From Spirochaetota bacterium (lineage in GTDB: Bacteria > Spirochaetota > Spirochaetia > SPDA01 > JAJSAL01), in contig JAJSAL010000008.1 in the NCBI GenBank assembly GCA_024274705.1, positions 62,001-126,000 on the forward strand: a stretch of 64,000 nt of DNA, read 5' to 3'. A program made the translations under genes and the position numbers. The notes below the pieces were generated by a model, which saw nothing but the letters and a program-made list of their open reading frames with translations, did no database searches and was not told the origin of the DNA. Below are positions 50,853-63,634 of the stretch, in pieces. How positions within the stretch are numbered: the first letter of the stretch is position 1; each line of letters opens with the position of its first letter.

Positions 50853-51944
50853 TCAGTAGTTCTTGTATCCAAGCCACCCGACCTTGAACCTGGGTTTTTT
50901 ACCCCGTATTATATCATCGAGAAAAAGCAGTACTGCTGCCCCCAACCTGCTCTTAAGCACCCTGAAAAACCAGGGTTTATGATGCGCCCTGTTGAACCAG
51001 GTATCGGGCCGGTTGTAAGGACAGACGGAAATGCAGGTGGAACAATCGTCCCAGCGCTCCTTGTCGGTTCCCCAGAAGCCGAGGCACTTTTTCGGTTCAA
51101 TAACCCATTTCTTCACCCCACGCAGGACCTCTTTTTCCCCTTTTGGAATAGCCCCGCTGGGACAGTTCGAAGCGCATTTTTTGCACACACTGCACATCTT
51201 CTGCACGCCGATGTCAATCGGATCATCCGGTACAAGCGGTAAATCCGTAGTTACCGTTGCAATACGTACCCGGGGACCATAGCCGGGAGTCATCAGTATC
51301 CCCAGTCTCCCCAACTCTCCCGTTCCTGCTTCAACGGCAATCGGTACTTGGAGGACCTGTTCCTCCCGTTCGTGGTGGGCCATGGCATCGAAACCGAGTT
51401 CCCGGATATAAGCCGCCAATTGGCATGCAGTGACAGCGGCTTTATTGTATACGTAACACCCTTCGGCCCCGTCGATAAAGCTGTGCCCCGCTTTAACTAG
51501 ATGGTAATCCCGCCGAAAAATCAGGGATATTGCGAATGCGTGGGTGTTGGTGATAGCCCTGCCGGCCTCCCCGGTACCGGCGGTATATTCGTCTGCACGA
51601 TGACTGGCGACATACGCCTGGTTGAGCAGGGCTACTCCGACGGCATCCGCACCAAAAAAACGGCCAATCCCTTTTATCCTCTCCGTCATCGCTTCCGCAC
51701 CATCGATATTCGTTTTTTTCGGGTTAACCGGCCCATGTACCGCGGGCACCAGGTGAAAAGTGATACAGTTTTCATCCCTGGGAATCCCCATAAGGGTACC
51801 ATAAAAAGGATCGGGAGTATGAACATCCGCCCATTTTCTCACCTTGGGATCTCTTTCCTCTCCCGAGGCCGCCCTTGTGAAAATAGACTCCCGCTGATCG
51901 AACTTGACTTGTGTCCCTACGATTTCCGTAGTTATTTTTTTCAA
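50853..51944 (-). CDS. Reductive-dehalogenase-like corrinoid/Fe-S protein
   Basis: 363 residues. The C-terminal part has two [4Fe-4S] motifs, Cys251-254-257-261 (CSVCKKCASNCP) and Cys287...301-304-308 (ending CSTCISVCP). Before them GELGRLGILMTPGYGPRVR and TTDLPLVPDDPID match the RdhA/QueG superfamily, closest in pattern to reductive dehalogenases. No Tat signal is present, so it is cytoplasmic, unlike respiratory RdhA. Such proteins bind a corrinoid and reduce C-halogen bonds; other reductions or corrinoid chemistry are possible. The start is TTG with GGAGG six bases before it. It diverges from the ribose-type importer operon (244 bases between starts). Confidence 0.85.
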   Translation of the reverse strand: MKKITTEIVGTQVKFDQRESIFTRAASGEERDPKVRKWADVHTPDPFYGTLMGIPRDENCITFHLVPAVHGPVNPKKTNIDGAEAMTERIKGIGRFFGADAVGVALLNQAYVASHRADEYTAGTGEAGRAITNTHAFAISLIFRRDYHLVKAGHSFIDGAEGCYVYNKAAVTACQLAAYIRELGFDAMAHHEREEQVLQVPIAVEAGTGELGRLGILMTPGYGPRVRIATVTTDLPLVPDDPIDIGVQKMCSVCKKCASNCPSGAIPKGEKEVLRGVKKWVIEPKKCLGFWGTDKERWDDCSTCISVCPYNRPDTWFNRAHHKPWFFRVLKSRLGAAVLLFLDDIIRGKKPRFKVGWLGYKNY

Positions 51945-52188
51945 ATCAATCCTCCGGGCTTTTTCCGTTGGTATAGCAAGGATTGCTGCAGCAAGAAAAG
52001 AGGTGAAAGTGAACTAATGATGCCCGATAAAACAACGGTTGTCAATGTTTGATTTCTCATTATATGGAATATGAATCTAAAAATAAACTTTACAAACAGC
52101 ATAAGCTGTAATAGAATACCGTGTCAAATCTGTAATTCTGAACAATTCATAGTTCATAGTTTTATATAGAACCAAAAGGGAATTGTTA

Positions 52189-53727
52189 ATGTCAGGAGAC
52201 AACGGAATTCTTCTTGCCATGCGTGGTATCAGCAAACGCTTTCCAGGTGTCCTCGCCCTTGACGATGTTCGGTTCGATCTCAAGCATGGTGAAGTCCATA
52301 CACTGATAGGCGAAAACGGGGCGGGGAAATCCACCCTGATCAAGATACTTGCCGGTGTATACTCCAAAGACAGTGGATCGGTAATCATCGAGGGTAAAGA
52401 CACCCACATCGTGAATCCCCATCACGCCCAGGAACAGGGAGTTTACACTATCTTCCAGGAAATCAGTACGGTTCCAAACCTGACGGTCTCCGAAAATCTT
52501 TTTCTGGGAAGGGAACTTTTGAAACCGACGGGACTCATCAACCGGTCCCTTCAAAAAGAACAAGCCAGGCAGCTTCTCAAAGATTTCAACTATGAAATAG
52601 ACCCGGATCTCCAGGTATCCACCCTGAACGTGGGTGAACTAAAAATGCTCAGCATAATCAAGGCTCTGAATAATAAGCATCTCCGAATACTTATCCTCGA
52701 CGAACCGACCTCTTCTCTAACAGACCGTGAAAGTGAAATTCTCTTCAATAATGTCACAAGTCTGAAGGAAAGAGGGGTTGGAATCATCTACATATCGCAC
52801 AGGTTGGAAGAACTGAAAAAAATAGGCGACCGGGTTACGGTGCTGAGAAACGGAGCTTATGTCGATACTCTTGCACTGGAAGAGGTAAACCATATCGATG
52901 ACTTAACGCCCCTGATGATCGGTAAGGACATCGCACAGAAATATCCGAAGTGGAAAGCCGAAACCGGCGAACCCCTGCTTCGGGTTAATAAGCTCACCCG
53001 GGAAGGATATTTCTGCGATGTAAGCATTGAAGCGAAGGCCGGTGAAATACTCGGTTTTTTCGGATTGGTAGGGTGCGGGTTCGAAGAGGTTTTCAGGTCG
53101 GTTTTCGGTGCTTCGTCGTACGATTCAGGAACGGTGGAGATCTTCAAGGATGGAAAATTTCATCAAGTCGAAAAATTCAATCCCGGCTCCGCATTGGACC
53201 TGCGAGTATCGTATATTCCGAGGGACCGCCGGTTTGAAGGTCTTGTCCTGAGCATGTCGGTGGCGGAGAATATCGCCTTAGCTTCCTATAAAAGATTATC
53301 CGATAATATGCTCGGGTACATCGACAGGAACCAGTTGGAAAAGGATGTCATAAAGTACAAGGACATGATGTCCATTAAGACACCCAGTATTACAACCGTC
53401 GTCGAAAACTTGAGCGGAGGCAACCAGCAGAAGGTAGTACTGGCCAAAGCCCTCTGTCACGGCGGGAATGTTTTCCTCTTCTGTGAACCTACTGCTGGAA
53501 TCGATGTAGGGACGAAAGTTGAAATCTACCAGTTTATGAACAAACTCACCCAAGAAGGTGCTGCCATCGTACTTGTATCCTATGAATTAACGGAAATCAT
53601 GGGAATGAGCGATCGGATAGCTGTGATGTACAACGGCAGGGTGGTGGGAAAATTCAACAGGGAAGACGCCCGGGAAGATGAAATTCTCCGTTACGCCTTC
53701 GGCAGCGGCGAAAAAGAAAACGAGTAA
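52189..53727 (+). CDS. Ribose-type ABC importer ATPase (RbsA-like)
   Basis: 512 residues with two nucleotide-binding domains. The first has Walker A GENGAGKS and LRILILDEPTSSLTD; the second has the relaxed P-loop GFFGLVGCGFEEVFR, NLSGGNQQKVVLAKAL and CEPTAGIDVGTKVE. This is the CUT2 class. I chose the ATG at 52189 with AAAGGG eight bases before. It is first in the operon with an RbsC-like permease and a binding protein, and lies upstream of the methyltransferase genes, so it may import their substrate. Confidence 0.92.
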   Translation: MSGDNGILLAMRGISKRFPGVLALDDVRFDLKHGEVHTLIGENGAGKSTLIKILAGVYSKDSGSVIIEGKDTHIVNPHHAQEQGVYTIFQEISTVPNLTVSENLFLGRELLKPTGLINRSLQKEQARQLLKDFNYEIDPDLQVSTLNVGELKMLSIIKALNNKHLRILILDEPTSSLTDRESEILFNNVTSLKERGVGIIYISHRLEELKKIGDRVTVLRNGAYVDTLALEEVNHIDDLTPLMIGKDIAQKYPKWKAETGEPLLRVNKLTREGYFCDVSIEAKAGEILGFFGLVGCGFEEVFRSVFGASSYDSGTVEIFKDGKFHQVEKFNPGSALDLRVSYIPRDRRFEGLVLSMSVAENIALASYKRLSDNMLGYIDRNQLEKDVIKYKDMMSIKTPSITTVVENLSGGNQQKVVLAKALCHGGNVFLFCEPTAGIDVGTKVEIYQFMNKLTQEGAAIVLVSYELTEIMGMSDRIAVMYNGRVVGKFNREDAREDEILRYAFGSGEKENE

Positions 53728-53741
53728 AGGGGACGATCGGT

Positions 53742-54719
53742 ATGTCTGATGTTCACAATGAAGCTTCTATAGAAAAAAGACATTTCCTTGACAGTATTAT
53801 CGCATTTTATCATAAAATCGGTCTGCTTTTCTTTGTTCTTGTCGGAGTAATTATCATTATCGGCGTTATTAATCCTCGTTTCCTGACCTTCGGAAATGCC
53901 ATTACCGTAATCAACCAAGCCAGTTTTCTCTGTCTTGTAGCTGCCGGGCAGATGCTCGTAATCCTTACCGCCGGTGTCGATGTGTCCCTTGGATCGATCA
54001 TCGGGCTTTCCAGCGTTATTGCCGCAATCGTGTCCAAGACGATGGGTACAGGGCCGGGATGGATAACCGCCGTACTGGTGGGGGGTGCCATCGGTTTGTT
54101 AAATGGTTTTATCCACGGCTGGTTCGAAATAGACTCTTTCGCGGTAACCCTGGGGACAATGTCCATTGCCCATGGGTTGGCCTTGATCATATCTAAGGGC
54201 CTGACGATATATGAACTGCCCTTTTCATACCAGCTTCTTGCGTACACCTATATCGGGACTATTCCCCTGCCGGTAATCATAACGGTAATGGTGATGATCC
54301 TCCTTTTTTTCATTATGTACCGTATGCGTTTCGGACGGTATGTGTACGCTCTTGGGGGAAATAAAGAGGCCCTGCGTCTTGCCGGGGTGAACGTAAGGGG
54401 TACTGTGCTGTGGGTATTCGGAACCGCGGGAATTTTAACTGGAATTTCCGCCGCAATTCTCTCCGCCCGGATCAATTCCGGCCAGCCGAATCTCGGAGGC
54501 GCTCTCATGCTGGAATCCATCGCCGCTTGTGTAGTCGGCGGGGTAACCTTCAAGGGAGGCGTGGGTAACATGGGAGGGGTGATTATAGGGGTAATTTTCT
54601 TGGCCGTGTTATCCAACGGATTCGACCTTATCGGTGTATCTTCTTTCGTGAAACAGGTTGTCGTGGGAACCATAATAATCATCGCCGTTGTCATTGATAA
54701 ATCAAAGAAAAAATCTTAA
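53742..54719 (+). CDS. Ribose-type ABC importer permease (RbsC-like)
   Basis: 325 residues, about nine membrane helices. CUT2 motifs: LVILTAGVDVSLGSIIGLSS, FAVTLGTMSIAHGLAL, ALGGNKEALRLAGVNV and ESIAACVVGGVTFKGGVG. It starts 14 bases after the ATPase gene. It forms the homodimeric channel. Confidence 0.93.
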   Translation: MSDVHNEASIEKRHFLDSIIAFYHKIGLLFFVLVGVIIIIGVINPRFLTFGNAITVINQASFLCLVAAGQMLVILTAGVDVSLGSIIGLSSVIAAIVSKTMGTGPGWITAVLVGGAIGLLNGFIHGWFEIDSFAVTLGTMSIAHGLALIISKGLTIYELPFSYQLLAYTYIGTIPLPVIITVMVMILLFFIMYRMRFGRYVYALGGNKEALRLAGVNVRGTVLWVFGTAGILTGISAAILSARINSGQPNLGGALMLESIAACVVGGVTFKGGVGNMGGVIIGVIFLAVLSNGFDLIGVSSFVKQVVVGTIIIIAVVIDKSKKKS

Positions 54720-54763
54720 ACACGGGTTTAAGATTTTGATATTTACCAAATCAGGAGGAAGGA

Positions 54764-55855
54764 ATGAAAAGAATGAGAATTATAGTTGCCCTGGTGGTTC
54801 TGCTTACGGCGCTGGCGCCACTAGCAGTATTCGCAACTCCTTACAACGATGACTGGCAGGGAATCAAGGCTGAAAACGTCTATCCCTGGGGTGCCCGTGT
54901 GTATGAGTCATGGGAAAGGACCTATCCTAAGAAGGCATATAACATCGGCATCAGTATCCCCTCCCTGGGGAGCCCTTATTTCGTTAACCAGGTCTACGGC
55001 TTCCTTACCGAGGCGAAAGCCCTGGGAGTCGGGGTAACCATTCTGGCGGCAAAAGGGTACGATGACCTTCAAGGACAGGTCAACCAGATCGAGAACCTCG
55101 TTAACAAGGGCGTGGATGCCCTCATCGTTGGACCCATCAGCGCTGAAGGATTGGCGGCGATTACCGACAGGTTCGCAACGCGGAGGAGAAAACCTGTCCC
55201 GGTCTATTTTATCGGGGAAGCTGCGTTGATCCATTCGCTCAGCGGGTACGTTTGCGAAAACGACTTTGACTTCGGGTTCAAGAGTGTCGACTACATAGGA
55301 AAAAAACTGAATGGAAAGGGCAAGATCGCCATTCTTCCGGGACCTGCAGGAAATACCTACACCGAAACCATCAATATGGGTGCTCATGCCGCGCTGGAAC
55401 GGTATCCCGGCCTTGAGCTCGTTGCCGAACGATGGGGAGACTCGGAAGATCCGGCGCACGGCCAGGCGGTTGCCGAAAATATCCTCAACGCCCACCCCGA
55501 CCTGGACGCATTTTTCGTAGTGGAAGCCCAGTCCCATGGTGTAGCCAATGCTTTGAAGGAGCGAAAACTTACCGATAAAGTAATTCTAACCGTGGCGTAT
55601 CCTTTCCAGGAAACTATTCCATATATTAAGGACGGTTCCATCGATTACGGTGTCACCGGTTACTCTCTCACCAATGCACGGATAATGCTGAACATGGTTG
55701 TCAGAAACTTAAACGGTGAACGGAAGGTTCCCAAGTACGTTTGGACACCCGGACTGGAAATGACAAGAGGCAATATCAGTTCTTTTCCGAGAAGTCACGT
55801 CTGGGCACCGGAAGGATGGAGCCCTCCGTCTTCCATGACCATCAAACCCAGGTAA
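54764..55855 (+). CDS. Periplasmic binding protein, TorT-like (Peripla_BP_4)
   Basis: 363 residues with a signal peptide ending AVFA before TPYNDDW. The fold is that of ribose-binding proteins (IGISIPSLGSPYFVNQVYGF, VDALIVGPISAEGL, DAFFVVEAQSHGVANAL). The N-terminal WxxW/Y-rich segment and overall layout recall TorT, which binds trimethylamine N-oxide; this resemblance is a judgement by eye. Together with downstream methylamine-type methyltransferases it suggests a methylated amine or amine oxide as ligand rather than a sugar. AGGAGG precedes the ATG. Confidence 0.85.
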   Translation: MKRMRIIVALVVLLTALAPLAVFATPYNDDWQGIKAENVYPWGARVYESWERTYPKKAYNIGISIPSLGSPYFVNQVYGFLTEAKALGVGVTILAAKGYDDLQGQVNQIENLVNKGVDALIVGPISAEGLAAITDRFATRRRKPVPVYFIGEAALIHSLSGYVCENDFDFGFKSVDYIGKKLNGKGKIAILPGPAGNTYTETINMGAHAALERYPGLELVAERWGDSEDPAHGQAVAENILNAHPDLDAFFVVEAQSHGVANALKERKLTDKVILTVAYPFQETIPYIKDGSIDYGVTGYSLTNARIMLNMVVRNLNGERKVPKYVWTPGLEMTRGNISSFPRSHVWAPEGWSPPSSMTIKPR

Positions 55856-55936
55856 GGGTAGGGTACCCAGGGTATAAAAACTCACCGGTCTTAGCCGGGG
55901 AACTACTCTCCGGTACTTCCCTGGCCAACCGGTTGT

Positions 55937-56599
55937 CTACTCAACAGATCTCTTTACTAATTGTATCCGCAGCTCTTCGGCGGCTTTTTCGAGGTCGATT
56001 TTTAACCATCTGGCGACAGTCTCTGCATCCCGGTCTTCCATTCCTTTAAGTATTTTTTCATGATACGCATCATGTGGCTTAACATTTTCGATGATCAGGT
56101 ATAGATACATATAATGACTCACACGATACCACAGGTCCTGAATCACTTCGAACAGAACCGGTTTTCCCGCACACTTGTAAATAGTATAATGAAACTCCTG
56201 GTTTTTCTTTATGTATTCTTCGATACCTTCCGTACCATTCATCTCATTCAATACCTTCCGTACTCTTCTTATCGTTTCAACGCTGCATTTTTTTACAGCC
56301 TCTTCAGCCGCCATTTGCTCTAAAACTATCCGAATTCGAAATATTTCATCCAAGTCATTGGTGGAAAGATCCTTGATAATCAGGCGTCTGTTTTTTTGTA
56401 TATGAACAAGCTTCTTCGCTTCCAGAGACTTAAGGGCCTGCCTGACAGGCATTTGGCTTACCCCGAATTGATCGGCCAGTTCTGTAAGTGTAATCTTTGT
56501 TCCGGGTTTGAGTTTGCCGAAAACAATAGCACGAAGTAATTCATTATAAACCCGCTTTTCGAGTGTTACGTTTGTCACAGGTGGTAGATTCTCTATCAT
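55937..56599 (-). CDS. GntR-family regulator, FadR/FCD subfamily
   Basis: 220 residues. A GntR winged helix (PGTKITLTELADQFGVSQMPVRQALKSLEAK) is followed by an all-helical FCD domain with DLDEIFRIRIVLEQMAA and metal/ligand-type His residues (FHYTIYKCAG, HDAYHEKIL). It is transcribed away from the corrinoid-MtmB operon, with 129 bases between starts, and probably controls it and perhaps the importer on its other side. Confidence 0.92.
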   Translation of the reverse strand: MIENLPPVTNVTLEKRVYNELLRAIVFGKLKPGTKITLTELADQFGVSQMPVRQALKSLEAKKLVHIQKNRRLIIKDLSTNDLDEIFRIRIVLEQMAAEEAVKKCSVETIRRVRKVLNEMNGTEGIEEYIKKNQEFHYTIYKCAGKPVLFEVIQDLWYRVSHYMYLYLIIENVKPHDAYHEKILKGMEDRDAETVARWLKIDLEKAAEELRIQLVKRSVE

Positions 56600-56654
56600 A
56601 TTACAGCCTCTCGTTCATTCTAAACGTATTGTAAATATAATCATAGATTGCCCC

Positions 56655-56696
56655 TTGACAACCTACAACAAATATGATCAAATATCAAGTATCATA
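56655..56696 (+). promoter_or_regulatory. Candidate promoter/operator of the corrinoid-MtmB operon
   Basis: A perfect TTGACA lies at 56655-56660; the -10 is unclear. Overlapping it, TATGAT (56673-56678) and ATCATA (56691-56696) form an inverted repeat 12 bases apart. This is a plausible site for the divergent FCD regulator. Confidence 0.4.
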
Positions 56697-56728
56697 AATA
56701 GGGAAATATGCCAAAAGAGGTGTGATGT

Positions 56729-57367
56729 ATGAAAGATGTATACGCTGAATTACGAAACGCGGTTCAAGCCGGAGAAGAGGAAAAGGTCAAGGAGCTAATA
56801 ACCCAAACCCTCGATGGCGGGACCCCTCCCGTTGAGATAATCGAAAAGGGGCTTCGTCCGGCTATGGAGGAAGTGGGAAAAAAGTTTGAAACCCTGGAAA
56901 TCTTCTTGCCGGAAATGATCATGGCTGCGGATACCATGGCCGCCGGGGTCGAATTGCTGCAACCCCATATGTCCGTGGATGATACGTCGAAAAACCTTGG
57001 AACGGTGGTTATCGGCACGGTGCAGGGGGATGTGCACAGGATCGGGAAAGATATCGTCCGTATTATGTTAGAAGGTTCGGGATTCAAAGTATTCGACATG
57101 GGTCACGATGTTCCCGACGAAGCATTCATTCAAAAGATTAAAGAGGTTAAACCCCGGGTGTTGGGATTGTCGACCTTGATGACGACCACCATGCAAAACA
57201 TCCCCAGGGTAATTGAAGGAATCAAGGCGGAGAATATCCGAAAGGATGTCAGGATAATCGTCGGGGGTGCCCCGGTTCTTCCCGAATGGGCTGATGCGGT
57301 CGGTGCCGACGGTTATGGAAAAACCGCGGTCGATGCAGTCAATATTACCAAGAAGTTTTCCCGGTAA
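56729..57367 (+). CDS. Corrinoid protein, MtmC/MttC family
   Basis: 212 residues. The N-terminal helical cap (about 1-90) has EIFLPEMIMAADTM; the Rossmann-like B12 domain has the base-off signature GDVHRIGKD, with His103 as the lower cobalt ligand, GLSTLMTTTM, and IVGGAPVLPEWADAVGADGYG. Such proteins carry a methyl group on Co(III) from a substrate methyltransferase to a methyl acceptor enzyme. It is co-transcribed with the MtmB-like gene 18 bases downstream and is its expected partner. Confidence 0.94.
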   Translation: MKDVYAELRNAVQAGEEEKVKELITQTLDGGTPPVEIIEKGLRPAMEEVGKKFETLEIFLPEMIMAADTMAAGVELLQPHMSVDDTSKNLGTVVIGTVQGDVHRIGKDIVRIMLEGSGFKVFDMGHDVPDEAFIQKIKEVKPRVLGLSTLMTTTMQNIPRVIEGIKAENIRKDVRIIVGGAPVLPEWADAVGADGYGKTAVDAVNITKKFSR

Positions 57368-57385
57368 TGGTAAAAGGAGAGAAAA

Positions 57386-58777
57386 ATGATTGATTTTTAT
57401 GAAGTTGTCCAGCGATCGGAAAATGGAGAAAAAATTTCGGAGGGTGAATTCGATCGCCGTGTCGGTAGAATTTCAGCAGAAGTGGTGAAAAAATTCGATA
57501 TAAAGTATGACCCGGAAGTCGTAGTTCCCTGGGACGATAACCTGGCGGACCGGCTCTTCGATGCGGCTGTCGAATTTTTTCTGAAAACCGGTGTCTACTG
57601 CACCGATACCGGAAGAATTATGACTTTCAGTAAACAGGAGTTGTTCGAATCCCTGGAATCGGCAACCGACCGGATTTCCTGGGGCCAAGGCAGGGACCGG
57701 AGGGTACAACAGGCGAGAAAAGTAGAGGACCCGAAACCGCCGTTTTGCAACTTCACCCTGGTGGGGAACCCCTATTCAGAGGAAACATTCCTGCCGGCCG
57801 CGATAAGCGTGGCAAAGGAACCCCTGGCGGACTGTTTTTCAGCGGGATCTTTATTACACACCTTGGGAGGCCTGGAGGTTCGATCCGGATCGCCTATGGA
57901 AGTCGAAGCGGGCATCTGGGACGTTGGCAAACGGAGAGAAGCGGCGGTCCGTGCAGGATATCCCGGGAAAGGGATGTACACCATGGTTTCAGCCGCGGAA
58001 AGGGCCGATGCGATGATAGCAGCGGCATACCCGGGTTTCGGCGGTCTGCCGAATGACGGCGTCCTTCACGGGGCGGTAGCGGAAATGAAAGTAGATTACG
58101 ACAGGATGAAAAAAATACCGTTCTTTCTTAAAACGCAATATACCATCGGAGGACTCTTCGGACCCCTTATGGGGGGATATGCCGGGGGACCCGAAGGAAC
58201 CAGCATGGTCCTAGTAGCCCACCACTTTCTCGGCCGCCTGGTTTACCAAACCCAATACTCCTGCTGCTTCCCTATTGAAATTCACGAAACCTGTAACACC
58301 ACGCGCAGAATGCTCTGGCTGGTGAGCACGGCCCATCAAGCGTTGTCCCGGAACACCCACCTGCTTCATTTTTCGAACACGTTTATTGCCGCCGGTCCCT
58401 GCACCGATATCGCCTGTTACGAGTTGATAAACTTCGGAGTCGCATCCGCTGTTTCCGGGGCCGATCTGTCACCCGCCGCGGTTGCCCGTAATAAAACCCC
58501 GGAACATTGTACCGGAATGGAAGGCAGAATTTGTGCGGAAGCGGCCCATGGGGCAAGCAGGATGGGAATGAGCAGAAAAGATGCTAATGATTTCGTAAAG
58601 AAAATTCTGCCGAAGTATGAAGACAATATCCACGATGCTCCAATCGGTAAAGCGATAAGCGATTGTTATAACATGGAGAGAGTCGTTCCCACCCAGGAGT
58701 ATATCGATCTGTATGAAAAAATAAAAAAAGAAGCCGGTGATTGTGGCTTGAAGTATCCTTCATTCCACCGGGATTAG
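57386..58777 (+). CDS. MtmB-family methylamine:corrinoid methyltransferase without pyrrolysine
   Basis: 463 residues, against about 458 for methanogen MtmB. From memory of MtmB, the shared segments include TGVYCTDTGRI (68-78), MGGYAGGPEGTSMV (262-275), AAGPCTD (335-341), NKTPEHCTGMEGR (369-381) and ERVVPTQEYIDLYEKIKK to the C-terminus. In methanogens an amber codon near residue 202 encodes pyrrolysine; counting back from the GGYAGG motif, that position falls at about 222-223 here, in LPND. The gene is open throughout with no internal TAG. AAAGGAG precedes the ATG. It likely moves a methyl group from an N-methyl compound to the corrinoid protein encoded upstream. The substrate must differ from, or be handled differently than, plain monomethylamine. 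Confidence 0.88.
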   Translation: MIDFYEVVQRSENGEKISEGEFDRRVGRISAEVVKKFDIKYDPEVVVPWDDNLADRLFDAAVEFFLKTGVYCTDTGRIMTFSKQELFESLESATDRISWGQGRDRRVQQARKVEDPKPPFCNFTLVGNPYSEETFLPAAISVAKEPLADCFSAGSLLHTLGGLEVRSGSPMEVEAGIWDVGKRREAAVRAGYPGKGMYTMVSAAERADAMIAAAYPGFGGLPNDGVLHGAVAEMKVDYDRMKKIPFFLKTQYTIGGLFGPLMGGYAGGPEGTSMVLVAHHFLGRLVYQTQYSCCFPIEIHETCNTTRRMLWLVSTAHQALSRNTHLLHFSNTFIAAGPCTDIACYELINFGVASAVSGADLSPAAVARNKTPEHCTGMEGRICAEAAHGASRMGMSRKDANDFVKKILPKYEDNIHDAPIGKAISDCYNMERVVPTQEYIDLYEKIKKEAGDCGLKYPSFHRD

Positions 58778-58797: not shown

Positions 58798-58828
58798 AAA
58801 CCGGAGCATACGCGCTCCGGTTTTTTTT
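58798..58828 (+). terminator. Rho-independent terminator after the MtmB-like gene
   Basis: AAACCGGAGC (58798-58807) and GCTCCGGTTT (58814-58823) form a 10-bp stem around ATACGC, followed by T to 58828. It ends the corrinoid-MtmB transcript 21 bases after its stop, so the aminotransferase gene must have its own promoter. Confidence 0.95.
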
Positions 58829-58939: not shown

Positions 58940-58967
58940 TTGACAGGGTGGAATAACAATATAAAAT
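58940..58967 (+). promoter_or_regulatory. Candidate promoter of the aminotransferase gene
   Basis: TTGACA (58940-58945) and TAAAAT (58962-58967) are 16 bp apart. The pair lies 115 bases before the start codon. The rest of 58829-59082 is GC-rich and shows no gene. Confidence 0.6.
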
Positions 58968-59082: not shown

Positions 59083-60420
59083 ATGACCGAACTATCGGGC
59101 ATTATCGACCAGTATAAAAACAGAACACCGGAATCGGCCCGGATGCACACCAGGGCCTCCGGACTCATCCAGGGGGGAGTTACCAGCCCTTTCCGCTACT
59201 TCGAACCCCATCCCTTTTTCGTCGCCAGGGGAAAAGCGGGAAGAATATGGGATGTGGACGGCAATGAATACATCGACTTCAATAATTCCTACGGGGCGAT
59301 TATCGCAGGGCACGCACACCCGGAGATTATCAAAGCCATCGTGGAGCAGGCCGAGAAGGGTACCATGTTCGGCATACCCGGAGAACTTACCGAGAAGCTA
59401 CTTCAAGAACTCCTCCGGCGTTACCCGTCAATGCGTTACTTCCGTTTGACCAATACTGGAAACGAGGCGACCCTGTATGCCCTGCGACTGGCCAGGGCGT
59501 ATACCGGAAAAGATAAAATCATCAAGATCGAGGGCAGCTACCACGGCTGCCACGACGCGGTGCTGGTCAGTGACAAACCTCTTCACCCGTCCCACATGGG
59601 CCCAGCCTGGGCACCATCGACGATACCTGAATCGGCGGGTATTCTTCCAGACACGGTAAAGAATACCCTCGTGGTTCCCTGGAACAACACCGATGCTTTG
59701 GAACAATGCCTCAACCGTAATCTCGGATGCGTTGCGGGGGTTATCATGGAACCGGTAGTGGCCAATTTCGGCATGTGCCTCCCGGCCGAGGGCTACCTGC
59801 AGGCTGTCCGGGAAATTACCAGGCGCCATAACGTAGCGCTTATTTTCGACGAAGTAAAAGTAGGTGTCCGCCTGGCACCTGGAGGCGGTGTGGAAATAAG
59901 CGGTGTGATACCCGACATAATCTGCCTGTCGAAAGCAATGGGGGGAGGCATGCCCATGGCTGCTTTCGGTGCTACCGAGGATCTTTGGGACATGCTGTAT
60001 CCCCTGGGCGACATGATGCATTATGGAACCTACAATGGAAATCCCATTTCTGTTGCGGCCAGCCTGGCCTGCCTGACCAAGGTGATGACCGACCAAGCAT
60101 ATACACATATGAACAAGATGGGAGAGAAACTCACCGAAGGAATAGAGGATTCCATCAGGCGTCACGGTATCCCCGCGGTAGTGACCGGAAAGGGAGGTAT
60201 GCGAACCGTATTCTTCCAGGAGACGATACCCGTAAATTACCGGGAGACCCTGGGAAATAACAGGGATGCCTGGTACAAGTGGTGGATGCACCTCCTTGCC
60301 AACGGCCTCTATTTTTCCGCACCGTCCCCCTACGAAGAGACCTTCATCTCGGTGGGAACCACCGAAAAAGACGTGGACGAAGCACTGCAGAAAATAGATG
60401 ACGCCTTCAAAGCATTATAA
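59083..60420 (+). CDS. Class III PLP aminotransferase (HemL-like)
   Basis: 445 residues of the fold type I class III family, nearest in pattern to glutamate-1-semialdehyde aminomutase: FRLTNTGNEATLYALRLARA binds the cofactor phosphate, SYHGCHD stacks on the ring, LIFDEVKVG has Asp256, and CLSKAMGGGMP has the Schiff-base Lys284. AGGAGG precedes the ATG. The gene lies between two corrinoid methyltransferase modules, which argues against haem synthesis. It probably transaminates or isomerises the demethylated amine. Confidence 0.9.
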   Translation: MTELSGIIDQYKNRTPESARMHTRASGLIQGGVTSPFRYFEPHPFFVARGKAGRIWDVDGNEYIDFNNSYGAIIAGHAHPEIIKAIVEQAEKGTMFGIPGELTEKLLQELLRRYPSMRYFRLTNTGNEATLYALRLARAYTGKDKIIKIEGSYHGCHDAVLVSDKPLHPSHMGPAWAPSTIPESAGILPDTVKNTLVVPWNNTDALEQCLNRNLGCVAGVIMEPVVANFGMCLPAEGYLQAVREITRRHNVALIFDEVKVGVRLAPGGGVEISGVIPDIICLSKAMGGGMPMAAFGATEDLWDMLYPLGDMMHYGTYNGNPISVAASLACLTKVMTDQAYTHMNKMGEKLTEGIEDSIRRHGIPAVVTGKGGMRTVFFQETIPVNYRETLGNNRDAWYKWWMHLLANGLYFSAPSPYEETFISVGTTEKDVDEALQKIDDAFKAL

Positions 60421-60500: not shown

Positions 60501-61151
60501 TTATGCGTGTTCCAGCAGCTTCCTGACCTTCTTGACACCATCCGCAGCATCGAATCCCACGGCATCGGCCCCGATTTCATCTGCGAACTCCTGGGTCACC
60601 GGGCAGCCGCCGACAATCACCTTGACCTGTTCCCGCAACCCCTCATCCTTCATGGTGTCAATGACTTCGCCCATCACCTGGAGCGGTAACGTAAGCAGGG
60701 TGGACATCCCAAGCACATCCGCACGGGTCTTCTTCACGGTGCCGATGAAATCTTCGACAGTCACATCGATTCCGATATCATTGACATCAATACCGTTCGC
60801 CTGCAGCACCGATGCCACCACCGACTTGCCGATATCGTGGATGTCACCTTTCACCGTGCCTATCACCATCTTACCCAGGGTATCCCGCTTCAGACCGGAC
60901 AAGGCGATCTGCTGGTCCAGCAGCTCGGTACCTGCCTTCATCACGTCCGCCGCCATGATCAGCTCAGGGAGGAACACGACACCGGTGCCGAAATCATCAC
61001 CTACCTTCGAGATCCCCCTTGACAGTCCCCGCTCGATGGTATCCAGGGGGTTCACCCCCCTCTCAATCCCCTCTTGTACCAACCGCGCGCATTCCTCCAC
61101 GTCACCATCAATTACCGTTTGTGCAAGTTTATCGAAATAGTCCTGGTCCAT
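60501..61151 (-). CDS. Corrinoid protein, MttC family (second)
   Basis: 216 residues. Helical cap with VVFLPELIMAADVMKAG, B12 domain with GDIHDIG (His105 as cobalt ligand), GMSTLLTLPLQVM and IVGGCPVTQEFADEIGADAVG. It is clearly a paralogue of the product at 56729. A GGAGG site precedes the ATG, nine bases after the MttB-like gene on the same strand. It is the expected partner of that methyltransferase. Confidence 0.95.
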   Translation of the reverse strand: MDQDYFDKLAQTVIDGDVEECARLVQEGIERGVNPLDTIERGLSRGISKVGDDFGTGVVFLPELIMAADVMKAGTELLDQQIALSGLKRDTLGKMVIGTVKGDIHDIGKSVVASVLQANGIDVNDIGIDVTVEDFIGTVKKTRADVLGMSTLLTLPLQVMGEVIDTMKDEGLREQVKVIVGGCPVTQEFADEIGADAVGFDAADGVKKVRKLLEHA

Positions 61152-61160
61152 GTTTTCCTC

Positions 61161-62648
61161 CTATCCTCGCGTGGGCGGCGTATCTTTCTCACCAACATCC
61201 CGCTTTTTTATAAAAGCCAGGTAATCATTTATCTCTTCCTGTTTTTCAACAGGCACCGGGCAGGAATGAGTATCCAGGATTTTCAAAGCCTTCTGCCTGC
61301 CTTTTTCCAGGAGTTCCGTATGACCCCTTTCCCAGCTTTCGAAGAAATCCCGGTTGCTCAACTCGGGGATGAGAAACTCCTTCCGGTACCAGTCCCGGGT
61401 ATGCCTCTCTTTCAGGTAGCTCCCCGGAAGGGGACCGACTTTCAGAATTTCGTCCACTGCCAGCCTTTCATCATCCACCCGGATGCCTTTCAGGTACTGA
61501 CCGATGAAGGACGCCACTTCGTTGTCCACGCACATATGAGCCCAATCCACATAATTGAATCCCGCCATCCCTCCGATGTCCCATATCAGGCTGATCCCGC
61601 TTAAAGCATACGTGTAATTCTTAAGAGCGCTCTCGTAGGCCGCCTGTTCATCTGTATCGCAGGCGTCATTAATAGTAAAGCCGACACAGGGTACACCGTA
61701 GAACCCCGCCATGGCGGCAACTCCCGCCCCGACCGTTCCGTATTCGGGATTGCCGAATTGCCAGAGACCGGTCCGCATATCCATGGCGGGATTGAAACCG
61801 CAGAAGCACAGGGGATGCCCGGGCTTATAGCTTTGAACCTGTACCACCAGGGCCAGAGTTTCGGCAATGGCCTGAACCAGCATCCCCGCGAGAGTAGCCG
61901 GGCCTGTAGCGCCGCCCATCAGCGCGCTGTACACGGTTACCGGAAGACCGGCGTCACAGAAACCGATAATCCAGCTTGTGTAATTGACATCGATTACCCG
62001 TGGAGGATTTGCGATTACATGTCCCAACACGTGGGGCTTCTTTTTCAGCGCCTCCTCGCCGCCGGCTGCAATCTGCCAAATCTTGACCAGGTCCTGGATC
62101 TCGTGTTCGGCCCCGGTGTTATACACCCAGGTCATGCTTTTCTCGGTGTACTTCATCATCTCTCCCACCAACATCTGGGAGTTGCATATCTTAGGCTCAT
62201 CGTAAAGCCACATTACCGCTTTATATAAACCATGCACATTATCGAGGGCGTCAGCCATGACCGTTCCGTCCACGGCATCGGCCCTTGTTGCTTTACGGCG
62301 CTCCCCGGTCCTGATGTCTCTTAAATAGCGGCCGGTAACAGTGGCAAAATGCACTTCACCACACCCAAGGGAAACATCGTTTTCACCGGTATCATCCCGG
62401 CCGTATATCTTGAACCGGTCTGGACATTTTTTAAAAGCATCCATGATTACTCTTTCCGGAATCTTTACAAGCTCCCCGTTATTCTCGACTTCACAACCCG
62501 CCTTTTTAAACATTTCTGCGGCCCTGGGGTCGTCACAACGCATACCGCCCTCTTCCAACACCCTGACGGCAGCCTCGTGAACCTTCACGCATTCAGCTTC
62601 GGTAATGGGGAAAGTCGAACCAACCAATTTACCTGTGAATCCTTGCAT
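61161..62648 (-). CDS. MttB-family methyltransferase without pyrrolysine
   Basis: 495 residues from the ATG at 62648, which follows AGGAGGAGG; a GTG inside that site is not the start. Family marks are ALMGGATGPATLAGMLVQ (242-259) and YGVPCVG...DEQAAYESALKN (317-344). In true MttB an amber-encoded pyrrolysine precedes the conserved D.QA.YE block; here the same place (about 325-328) is TIND and no TAG occurs. Non-pyrrolysine relatives such as MtgB demethylate glycine betaine or other quaternary amines. This gene and the corrinoid gene after it form a two-gene operon facing the aminotransferase. The substrate is unknown. Confidence 0.93.
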   Translation of the reverse strand: MQGFTGKLVGSTFPITEAECVKVHEAAVRVLEEGGMRCDDPRAAEMFKKAGCEVENNGELVKIPERVIMDAFKKCPDRFKIYGRDDTGENDVSLGCGEVHFATVTGRYLRDIRTGERRKATRADAVDGTVMADALDNVHGLYKAVMWLYDEPKICNSQMLVGEMMKYTEKSMTWVYNTGAEHEIQDLVKIWQIAAGGEEALKKKPHVLGHVIANPPRVIDVNYTSWIIGFCDAGLPVTVYSALMGGATGPATLAGMLVQAIAETLALVVQVQSYKPGHPLCFCGFNPAMDMRTGLWQFGNPEYGTVGAGVAAMAGFYGVPCVGFTINDACDTDEQAAYESALKNYTYALSGISLIWDIGGMAGFNYVDWAHMCVDNEVASFIGQYLKGIRVDDERLAVDEILKVGPLPGSYLKERHTRDWYRKEFLIPELSNRDFFESWERGHTELLEKGRQKALKILDTHSCPVPVEKQEEINDYLAFIKKRDVGEKDTPPTRG

Positions 62649-62704
62649 ATTCGTCCTCCTCCTCACGCAAATACTACAAAATGTATTTTACGAAAGGTCT
62701 GTTT

Positions 62705-62755: not shown

Positions 62756-62851
62756 GAATAACCCTACTGCAGAATCCACGGTCCCTCTTTACCAAGGTTA
62801 TGACTTTATTTACACTGACGAAAGCAGGCTGGCCCTGCGGCTTTGAGAAAC

Positions 62852-63634
62852 ATGAGTTCTATCGACAAGATACACGCGGTTTTCGAAATCCTCAGGAAAC
62901 ATCATCGGACGGGGCTGACGAACAAGCAGATCTGCGACCGCCTTAATATGCCTGCCTCGACATCCTACCGGATTCTATCAGAGCTTCGAAAGTACGGGTA
63001 TATTCACCAGCGAAAAGAGGATACCTGTTTTTTCCTCGGCTTTAATCTATTACGCCTGGCAGAATCGGTGGTAGAAGGCACCAACGTAGCAGTAGTGTGC
63101 CTTCCGTTTCTGGAAGAGCTTCACTATCAGACGGAAGAAATTATGTTCTTCGCTCTCCGCAGCAGCAACCACTGCGTGGCAATGGAAATCTGCGGTCAGA
63201 TCAACACCCGCATCAATGTGGGCCGGGGTGAAATAATGCCCATGCATTGCACCGCGTCAGGAAAAGTCATCCTTGCATTTCTTCCGGAAAAAGAAAGAGA
63301 ACAAATCATCGACAAAATGGATTTTAAAGCATATACACCCTCCACGAATACCAGTCCTGATTCGTTACGAAAAGAACTGGAAGACATTCGTGTATGCGGA
63401 GTGGCCTACAATCACCAGGGATTGCATAAAGGATTCAGCGCAGTAGCAGCCCCCGTGTTCGACAACAAGGACGGACCGCTTGGCTCAATCGCTCTGGTGG
63501 GCTCTTCCACAGACCTGGACCAGGAGCAGATGGAAGAGTACGCAGAACTGCTGGTGGATGCCTGCAGCAACATATCATCAAGGGTGGGAGGTACGATGCC
63601 CAAATGGATAATCGAACACTGGAACCTGGTTTAA
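62852..63634 (+). CDS. IclR-family transcriptional regulator
   Basis: 260 residues. The N-terminal winged helix reads TGLTNKQICDRLNMPASTSYRILSEL; the C-terminal GAF-like effector domain has NVGRGEIMPMHCTASGKVILA and GVAYNHQGLHKGFSAVAAPVF. The ATG at 62852 was chosen; a TTG three codons earlier is in frame and neither has a strong SD site. It probably controls the divergent MttB-like operon in response to its substrate or product. Confidence 0.92.
   Translation: MSSIDKIHAVFEILRKHHRTGLTNKQICDRLNMPASTSYRILSELRKYGYIHQRKEDTCFFLGFNLLRLAESVVEGTNVAVVCLPFLEELHYQTEEIMFFALRSSNHCVAMEICGQINTRINVGRGEIMPMHCTASGKVILAFLPEKEREQIIDKMDFKAYTPSTNTSPDSLRKELEDIRVCGVAYNHQGLHKGFSAVAAPVFDNKDGPLGSIALVGSSTDLDQEQMEEYAELLVDACSNISSRVGGTMPKWIIEHWNLV

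Follow-up and report, generated by a model that had tools for sequence, protein, structure and literature searches.

A pyrrolysine-free MtmB-superfamily methyltransferase beside its own corrinoid protein in a Spirochaetota genome

A 64,000-nucleotide stretch of Spirochaetota DNA, referred to below as the window, carries a real gene for an MtmB-superfamily methyltransferase (Table 1). The protein lacks pyrrolysine (Pyl), the source genome yielded neither PylS nor PylB, and the gene of a corrinoid partner stands directly upstream. The enzyme probably takes a methyl group from a nitrogen compound for use by an oxygen-shunning bacterium and very likely acts on something other than monomethylamine. 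According to the favoured and fairly probable reading, it would act first, as the MtxB component, in a corrinoid system for N-demethylation that feeds methyl-tetrahydrofolate (methyl-THF) into the Wood–Ljungdahl pathway; candidate genes for each later step are present in the source genome or in the cluster of the orthologue.

The initial annotation was right in describing an MtmB-family homologue that is open throughout, has no pyrrolysine and is encoded next to its own corrinoid protein. The novelty that it saw in a pyrrolysine-free MtmB no longer holds. MtqB of Methanococcoides methylutens Q3c, a non-Pyl MtmB homologue reported in March 2026, was shown to demethylate tetramethylammonium and choline, and the tree in the same paper contains 1,061 Pyl and non-Pyl MtmBs (PMC13044021). 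Pyrrolysine-free members are common, and roles outside monomethylamine had already been suggested for a bacterial one from strain DCMF (PMC9768040). The window MtmB is therefore one more uncharacterised example of an established type, and its gene neighbourhood is informative; it may represent a new substrate class.

The gene and its pyrrolysine column

The open reading frame runs from ATG to stop without interruption and encodes 463 amino acids. The sole Pfam match of the product is PF05369 (MtmB; 305.1 bits, cut-off 25), which is covered from profile position 1 to 450 of 450; PF06253, the MttB superfamily, is matched by a downstream neighbour and not by this protein. The only solved relative is Methanosarcina barkeri MtmB1 (phmmer, E 1.3e-56). 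In comparison with an 80% identical homologue from the MAG Spirochaetes bacterium RBG_16_67_19, synonymous change is saturated and the non-synonymous difference is 13%, which indicates a real gene under selection. The stop codon is TAG, and read-through of this amber codon was considered and set aside, since a TAA two codons later would leave little added. A TIM-barrel fold and a hexameric assembly characterise the superfamily; an AlphaFold model of the window protein made from two sequences has a pLDDT of 31.5, too low for use. Searches of viral contigs and plasmids for relatives that could deepen the alignment returned none.

In the phmmer alignment and in a MAFFT alignment of 48 sequences, Pyl202 of MtmB1 falls in the same column as Tyr198 (GKGM-Y-TMVS) in the window protein. 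The initial annotation had put LPND at the pyrrolysine site and the pocket at residues 222–223. LPND occupies residues 221–224, which is 23–26 residues past Tyr198, and its Asp224 is a conserved family residue, corresponding to MtmB1 Asp226 and invariant in an 11-sequence alignment; residues 222–223 are therefore the wrong place for the pocket. Within the subclade of ten members to which the window protein belongs, the Pyl column is occupied by Tyr or His; elsewhere it is occupied by Val, Ile, Leu, Met or another residue. MtmB1 residues Glu229, Glu259, Gln333 and Tyr335, which are taken here to be the Pyl-contacting residues, align with Leu227, Leu257, Asn331 and Phe333, respectively.

Neither a PylS C-terminal domain nor PylB was found in the source genome (a MAG 96.6% complete), and none of its four MtmB paralogues contains an in-frame amber codon. 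In the residue at the Pyl position, the residues around it and the genes for Pyl biosynthesis and charging, the window protein thus differs from MtmB proper. Taken with Tyr198, the lack of PylS, PylB and in-frame amber codons means that pyrrolysine is truly missing, but at the Tyr198 column rather than at LPND. The aromatic residue at this position and the loss of acidic residues around it would suit a cationic quaternary substrate.

Corrinoid partner and neighbouring genes

The corrinoid gene (CorrA) ends 18 bases before the MtmB start codon, and the gap contains a GGAG/AGGAGA-like ribosome site. In having an adjoining cognate corrinoid gene, the window MtmB conforms to its superfamily. The CorrA product has both B12-binding domains. 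It scores 219.1 bits with the pyl_corrinoid model (cut-off 215.3) and 210.5 bits with MtbC, below the cut-off of 350 for that model; its best curated model is that of the methylamine-methyltransferase corrinoid group.

Table 1. Features of the window around the MtmB gene
Feature	Position	Strand	Basis or remark
Cytoplasmic reductive-dehalogenase-like (RDH-like) Fe-S/cobalamin protein, 363 aa	50853..51944	-	TIGR02486 over cut-off; 68% orthologue near L005 MtmB
Sugar-type (RbsA/AraG-like) ABC transporter ATPase	52183..53727	+	66% orthologue in L005
Sugar-type ABC permease	53742..54719	+	72% orthologue in L005
Periplasmic binding protein (Peripla_BP_4)	54764..55855	+	67% orthologue in L005
GntR/FCD regulator	55937..56599	-	Divergent from corrinoid–MtmB pair; 51% orthologue in L005 cluster
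Corrinoid protein (CorrA), cognate MtmB partner	56729..57367	+	PF02310 and PF02607; DxHxxG motif is DVHRIG
Non-pyrrolysine MtmB-superfamily methyltransferase	57386..58777	+	PF05369, ORF, alignments; Tyr198 opposite Pyl202
Intrinsic terminator behind MtmB	58798..58823	+	10-pair stem and T run
Promoter-like site before aminotransferase gene	58940..58967	+	11/12 pattern match, not above regional chance
Class III (GSAM-like) aminotransferase	59083..60420	+	Profile matches; orthologues within MtmB/MttB clusters or at their contig edge
Second corrinoid protein (CorrB), MttB partner	60501..61151	-	Domain search, orthologue comparison
Non-pyrrolysine MttB-superfamily methyltransferase	61161..62666	-	PF06253; nearest solved relatives are glycine betaine methyltransferases
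IclR regulator of MttB module	62843..63634	+	Domain search, orthologue comparison

The closest counterpart of this region is locus L005, in a genome of a different family, whose MtmB is an 80% orthologue of that in the window. The genes at L005 encode, in order, a GntR regulator, a Liv-type transporter, a corrinoid protein, MtmB, a methyl-THF:corrinoid/Fe-S protein methyltransferase directly behind it (PRK07535; 284.5 bits, cut-off 259), an RDH-like protein and a sugar-type ABC ATPase, permease and binding protein. With the exception of the Liv transporter and the THF methyltransferase, these genes recur at positions 50853–58777 of the window with 51–80% identity, in a different order. Neither an MttB nor an aminotransferase is found near MtmB in L005.

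The RDH-like protein has no twin-arginine signal, as judged by inspection. An alignment with PceA showed that the equivalents of Tyr246, Arg305 and Trp376, presumably the active-site residues of PceA, are kept. An earlier interpretation, in which the protein had lost catalytic residues that NpRdhA possesses (K488 to R, R552 to W), was dropped after this alignment. Among 395 genomes of the class, orthologues with more than 60% identity occur only in the window genome and that of L005. Genome G486 was removed as a third case: it has the same 47,113-base contig and is the MAG of L005, which leaves two genomes with the cassette.

The genes downstream of MtmB have a different distribution. Orthologues of the aminotransferase with more than 70% identity are present in five of the 395 class genomes (the window genome and four others), all of which carry an MtmB from the ten-member clade of the window protein; those in G516, G507 and G483 lie within an MtmB/MttB cluster or at its contig edge. 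The MttB has 84–86% orthologues beside an MtmB at loci L067, L069 and L078. At L069 and L078 it is accompanied by the aminotransferase (71–72%), CorrB (73–74%), IclR and a different corrinoid/MtmB pair (MtmB 46%). L067 stops at a contig edge, and the remainder of the module (aminotransferase 86%, CorrB 84%) is located at the edge of another contig (L110) in the same genome. The terminator behind MtmB and the separate promoter-like site in front of the aminotransferase gene indicate that the two modules are neighbours and not one operon. As L005 has neither gene, the link of the MttB and the aminotransferase to the window MtmB is drawn from the window itself and from the 46% paralogues.

Relatives, proposed pathway and candidate substrates

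Among the genomes sampled, PF05369 occurs in 9 of 393 for the phylum and in 23 of 395 for the class, frequently as multiple copies, and related spirochaetes have more than 40 MtmB-type genes. In a tree of 48 sequences, constructed without MtqB, the window MtmB pairs with that of L005 (100/100) and nests first in a spirochaetal clade of ten sequences (100/100) and then in one of 16 (99/97); M. barkeri MtmB1 is placed elsewhere, on a long branch. The window MtmB belongs to a spirochaetal subclade with no characterised member.

About 13 of 17 MtmBs (the 16-sequence clade and close copies) have an MttB-family gene within about 5 kb. In the source genome, this applies to three of the four MtmBs, against an expectation of about 2% per locus, calculated from ten MttB genes in 4.59 Mb; P is about 4e-5 for at least three of four, a figure that treats the loci as independent and serves as a guide only. 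Aminotransferases recur in the same clusters as related MtmBs. Such repeated association with aminotransferases and with methyltransferases of the MttB type speaks for N-methylated amino compounds as substrates.

The other paralogues of the source genome have neighbourhoods of their own. The L003 type, also found in G393, G447 and G516, occurs with genes for indolepyruvate ferredoxin oxidoreductase and for a class I aminotransferase, HisC-like or other; such clusters are most simply read as serving the breakdown of an N-methylated aromatic amino acid. MtmB, indolepyruvate ferredoxin oxidoreductase, an aminotransferase and usually MttB occur together at L022 (source genome, C105, 577–9686), L126, L115 and L117, and L022 additionally carries an amino-acid-type binding protein. 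The MtmB of the source genome closest to that of the window (51%; L023, L068) has two molybdopterin oxidoreductases, an M20-type hydrolase, an MttB and a methyl-THF methyltransferase as flanking genes, a set largely conserved in G483. The fourth paralogue (L004, C138, 1612–2865, minus strand) has an early TAA, with PF05369 homology continuing beyond it, and has a methyl-THF methyltransferase-like gene on one side and, on the other, genes encoding a corrinoid protein and a RamA-type activator. In another spirochaete (G016), three tandem MtmB genes with no adjoining corrinoid gene occur on one contig (L028, 1529–5986).

In the proposed mechanism, the window MtmB would confer substrate specificity on a corrinoid methyltransferase system of three components and would act on an amino compound taken up by the cell, probably a quaternary or N-methylated one. 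If it works like MtqB and the quaternary amine enzymes of the MttB type, the substrate would sit in the barrel with its methyl group facing Co(I) of CorrA, and the N-methyl group would pass directly to this corrinoid with no need for pyrrolysine. Transfer of the methyl group to tetrahydrofolate would fall to another methyltransferase, from the methyl-THF:corrinoid-protein family (PRK07535-type), while RamA/RACo-type activators would hold the corrinoid in the reduced state; methyl-THF would then enter the acetyl-CoA (Wood–Ljungdahl) pathway. The nearby aminotransferase and MttB would presumably have a part in this as well. The source genome contains a 68% homologue of the L005 PRK07535-type enzyme, near another MtmB, as well as four RACo-type activators, acsB and FTHFS. 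Counting against this explanation are the transporter, which is of the sugar class and no obvious amine importer, the 7.7% contamination of the MAG, the in-frame TAG of acsB, and L005, where the direct orthologue has no MttB or aminotransferase nearby. The acsB gene (L128, C51, 733–2949, minus strand) has 739 codons, of which codon 474 is the only in-frame TAG; neither PylS nor PylB was found in the genome, and the TAG is perhaps a nonsense change or an assembly consensus error.

As to the compound itself, one tentative proposal is that an N-methylated amino acid or betaine is demethylated in turn by the MttB and the window MtmB, and that the aminotransferase removes the freed amino group. The recurrence of the MttB, CorrB and aminotransferase with an MtmB/corrinoid pair at L069 and L078, and partly at L067/L110, speaks for it, as do the paralogue clusters with indolepyruvate oxidoreductase and an aminotransferase (L022, L126, L115 and L117) and the binding protein of L022. 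However, the MtmB of L069/L078-type clusters is only 46% identical to the window MtmB, the true orthologue cluster L005 lacks both downstream enzymes, and a terminator intervenes in the window. Moreover, without pyrrolysine, a quaternary amine would be chemically easier to demethylate than a tertiary or secondary one; should any member manage the latter, that would inform the question of why pyrrolysine is required in the first place.

It is unlikely that the window MtmB instead serves the cassette shared with L005, degrading, with the RDH-like protein and the transporter, a methylated and possibly halogenated or otherwise reducible compound. The set of seven genes (GntR, corrinoid protein, MtmB, RDH-like protein, ATPase, permease and binding protein) is kept in two genomes of different families, the RDH-like orthologues are confined to these two, and the catalytic Tyr and Arg of PceA are retained; a non-Pyl MtmB also topped the dichloromethane proteome of DCMF (PMC9768040). 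Two genomes are few, though, the gene order differs between the clusters, and proteins of the RDH superfamily have other or unknown roles too. A two-enzyme cobalamin pathway, in which MtmB would demethylate and the co-conserved RDH-like protein would reduce the same compound, taken up by the dedicated transporter, is quite unlikely; if true, the substrate class would be new to both families.

A choline/tetramethylammonium methyltransferase like MtqB, transferred to or shared with bacteria, is improbable. MtqB is the only characterised non-Pyl MtmB and has an MtbC-like corrinoid protein encoded upstream, as in the window; its clade, marked by an active-site Met/Cys signature, includes bacteria (PMC13044021). 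Its activity was demonstrated by proteomics and a cob(I)alamin assay, at 37 nmol/min/mg with tetramethylammonium, 42 with choline and a weak 11 with monomethylamine; trimethylamine and glycine betaine were not used (PMC13044021). In contrast, the window subclade is entirely spirochaetal in the sample treed, and a GSAM-like aminotransferase, a sugar-type transporter and an RDH-like protein are not the neighbours expected for tetramethylammonium or choline. An ordinary monomethylamine methyltransferase managing without pyrrolysine is extremely improbable: family membership and the weak monomethylamine activity of MtqB would allow it, but pyrrolysine and the presumed Pyl contacts of MtmB1 are all replaced, and neither the transporter nor the regulators hint at this substrate.

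Non-pyrrolysine MtmBs are numerous, yet one alone has a demonstrated function. The present analysis adds gene-context leads for several bacterial branches; the recurrent pairing with MttB-type enzymes, aminotransferases or indolepyruvate oxidoreductase suggests N-methylated amino acids or betaines, which are directly testable.

Comparison with known systems

The window MtmB resembles M. barkeri MtmB1 (PDB 1L2Q/1NTH) in its full-length PF05369 match, similar length and corrinoid partner, and differs from it in having Tyr198, Leu227, Leu257, Asn331 and Phe333 in place of Pyl202, Glu229, Glu259, Gln333 and Tyr335. With MtqB it shares the arrangement of a non-Pyl MtmB gene directly after its own MtbC-like corrinoid gene (PMC13044021). 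MtqB, however, is archaeal and passes the methyl group to coenzyme M for methanogenesis, whereas the spirochaetal enzyme has another neighbourhood and would use the methyl-THF route.

The MtmB of 'Ca. Formimonas warabiya' DCMF (Ga0180325_111810), the most strongly induced protein on dichloromethane in a 2022 proteome study (PMC9768040), is, as far as its description allows comparison, likewise bacterial, pyrrolysine-free and suggested to act outside monomethylamine; it differs in its proteomic link to dichloromethane and is about 30% identical to other family members. MtgB, MtpB, MtcB, MtyB and MthB are also pyrrolysine-free B components, which act on quaternary amines and pass the methyl group via a corrinoid protein to THF. 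They belong to a separate family, PF06253, with no significant sequence similarity to MtmB, and it is the MttB neighbour in the window that falls into their non-Pyl MttB superfamily.
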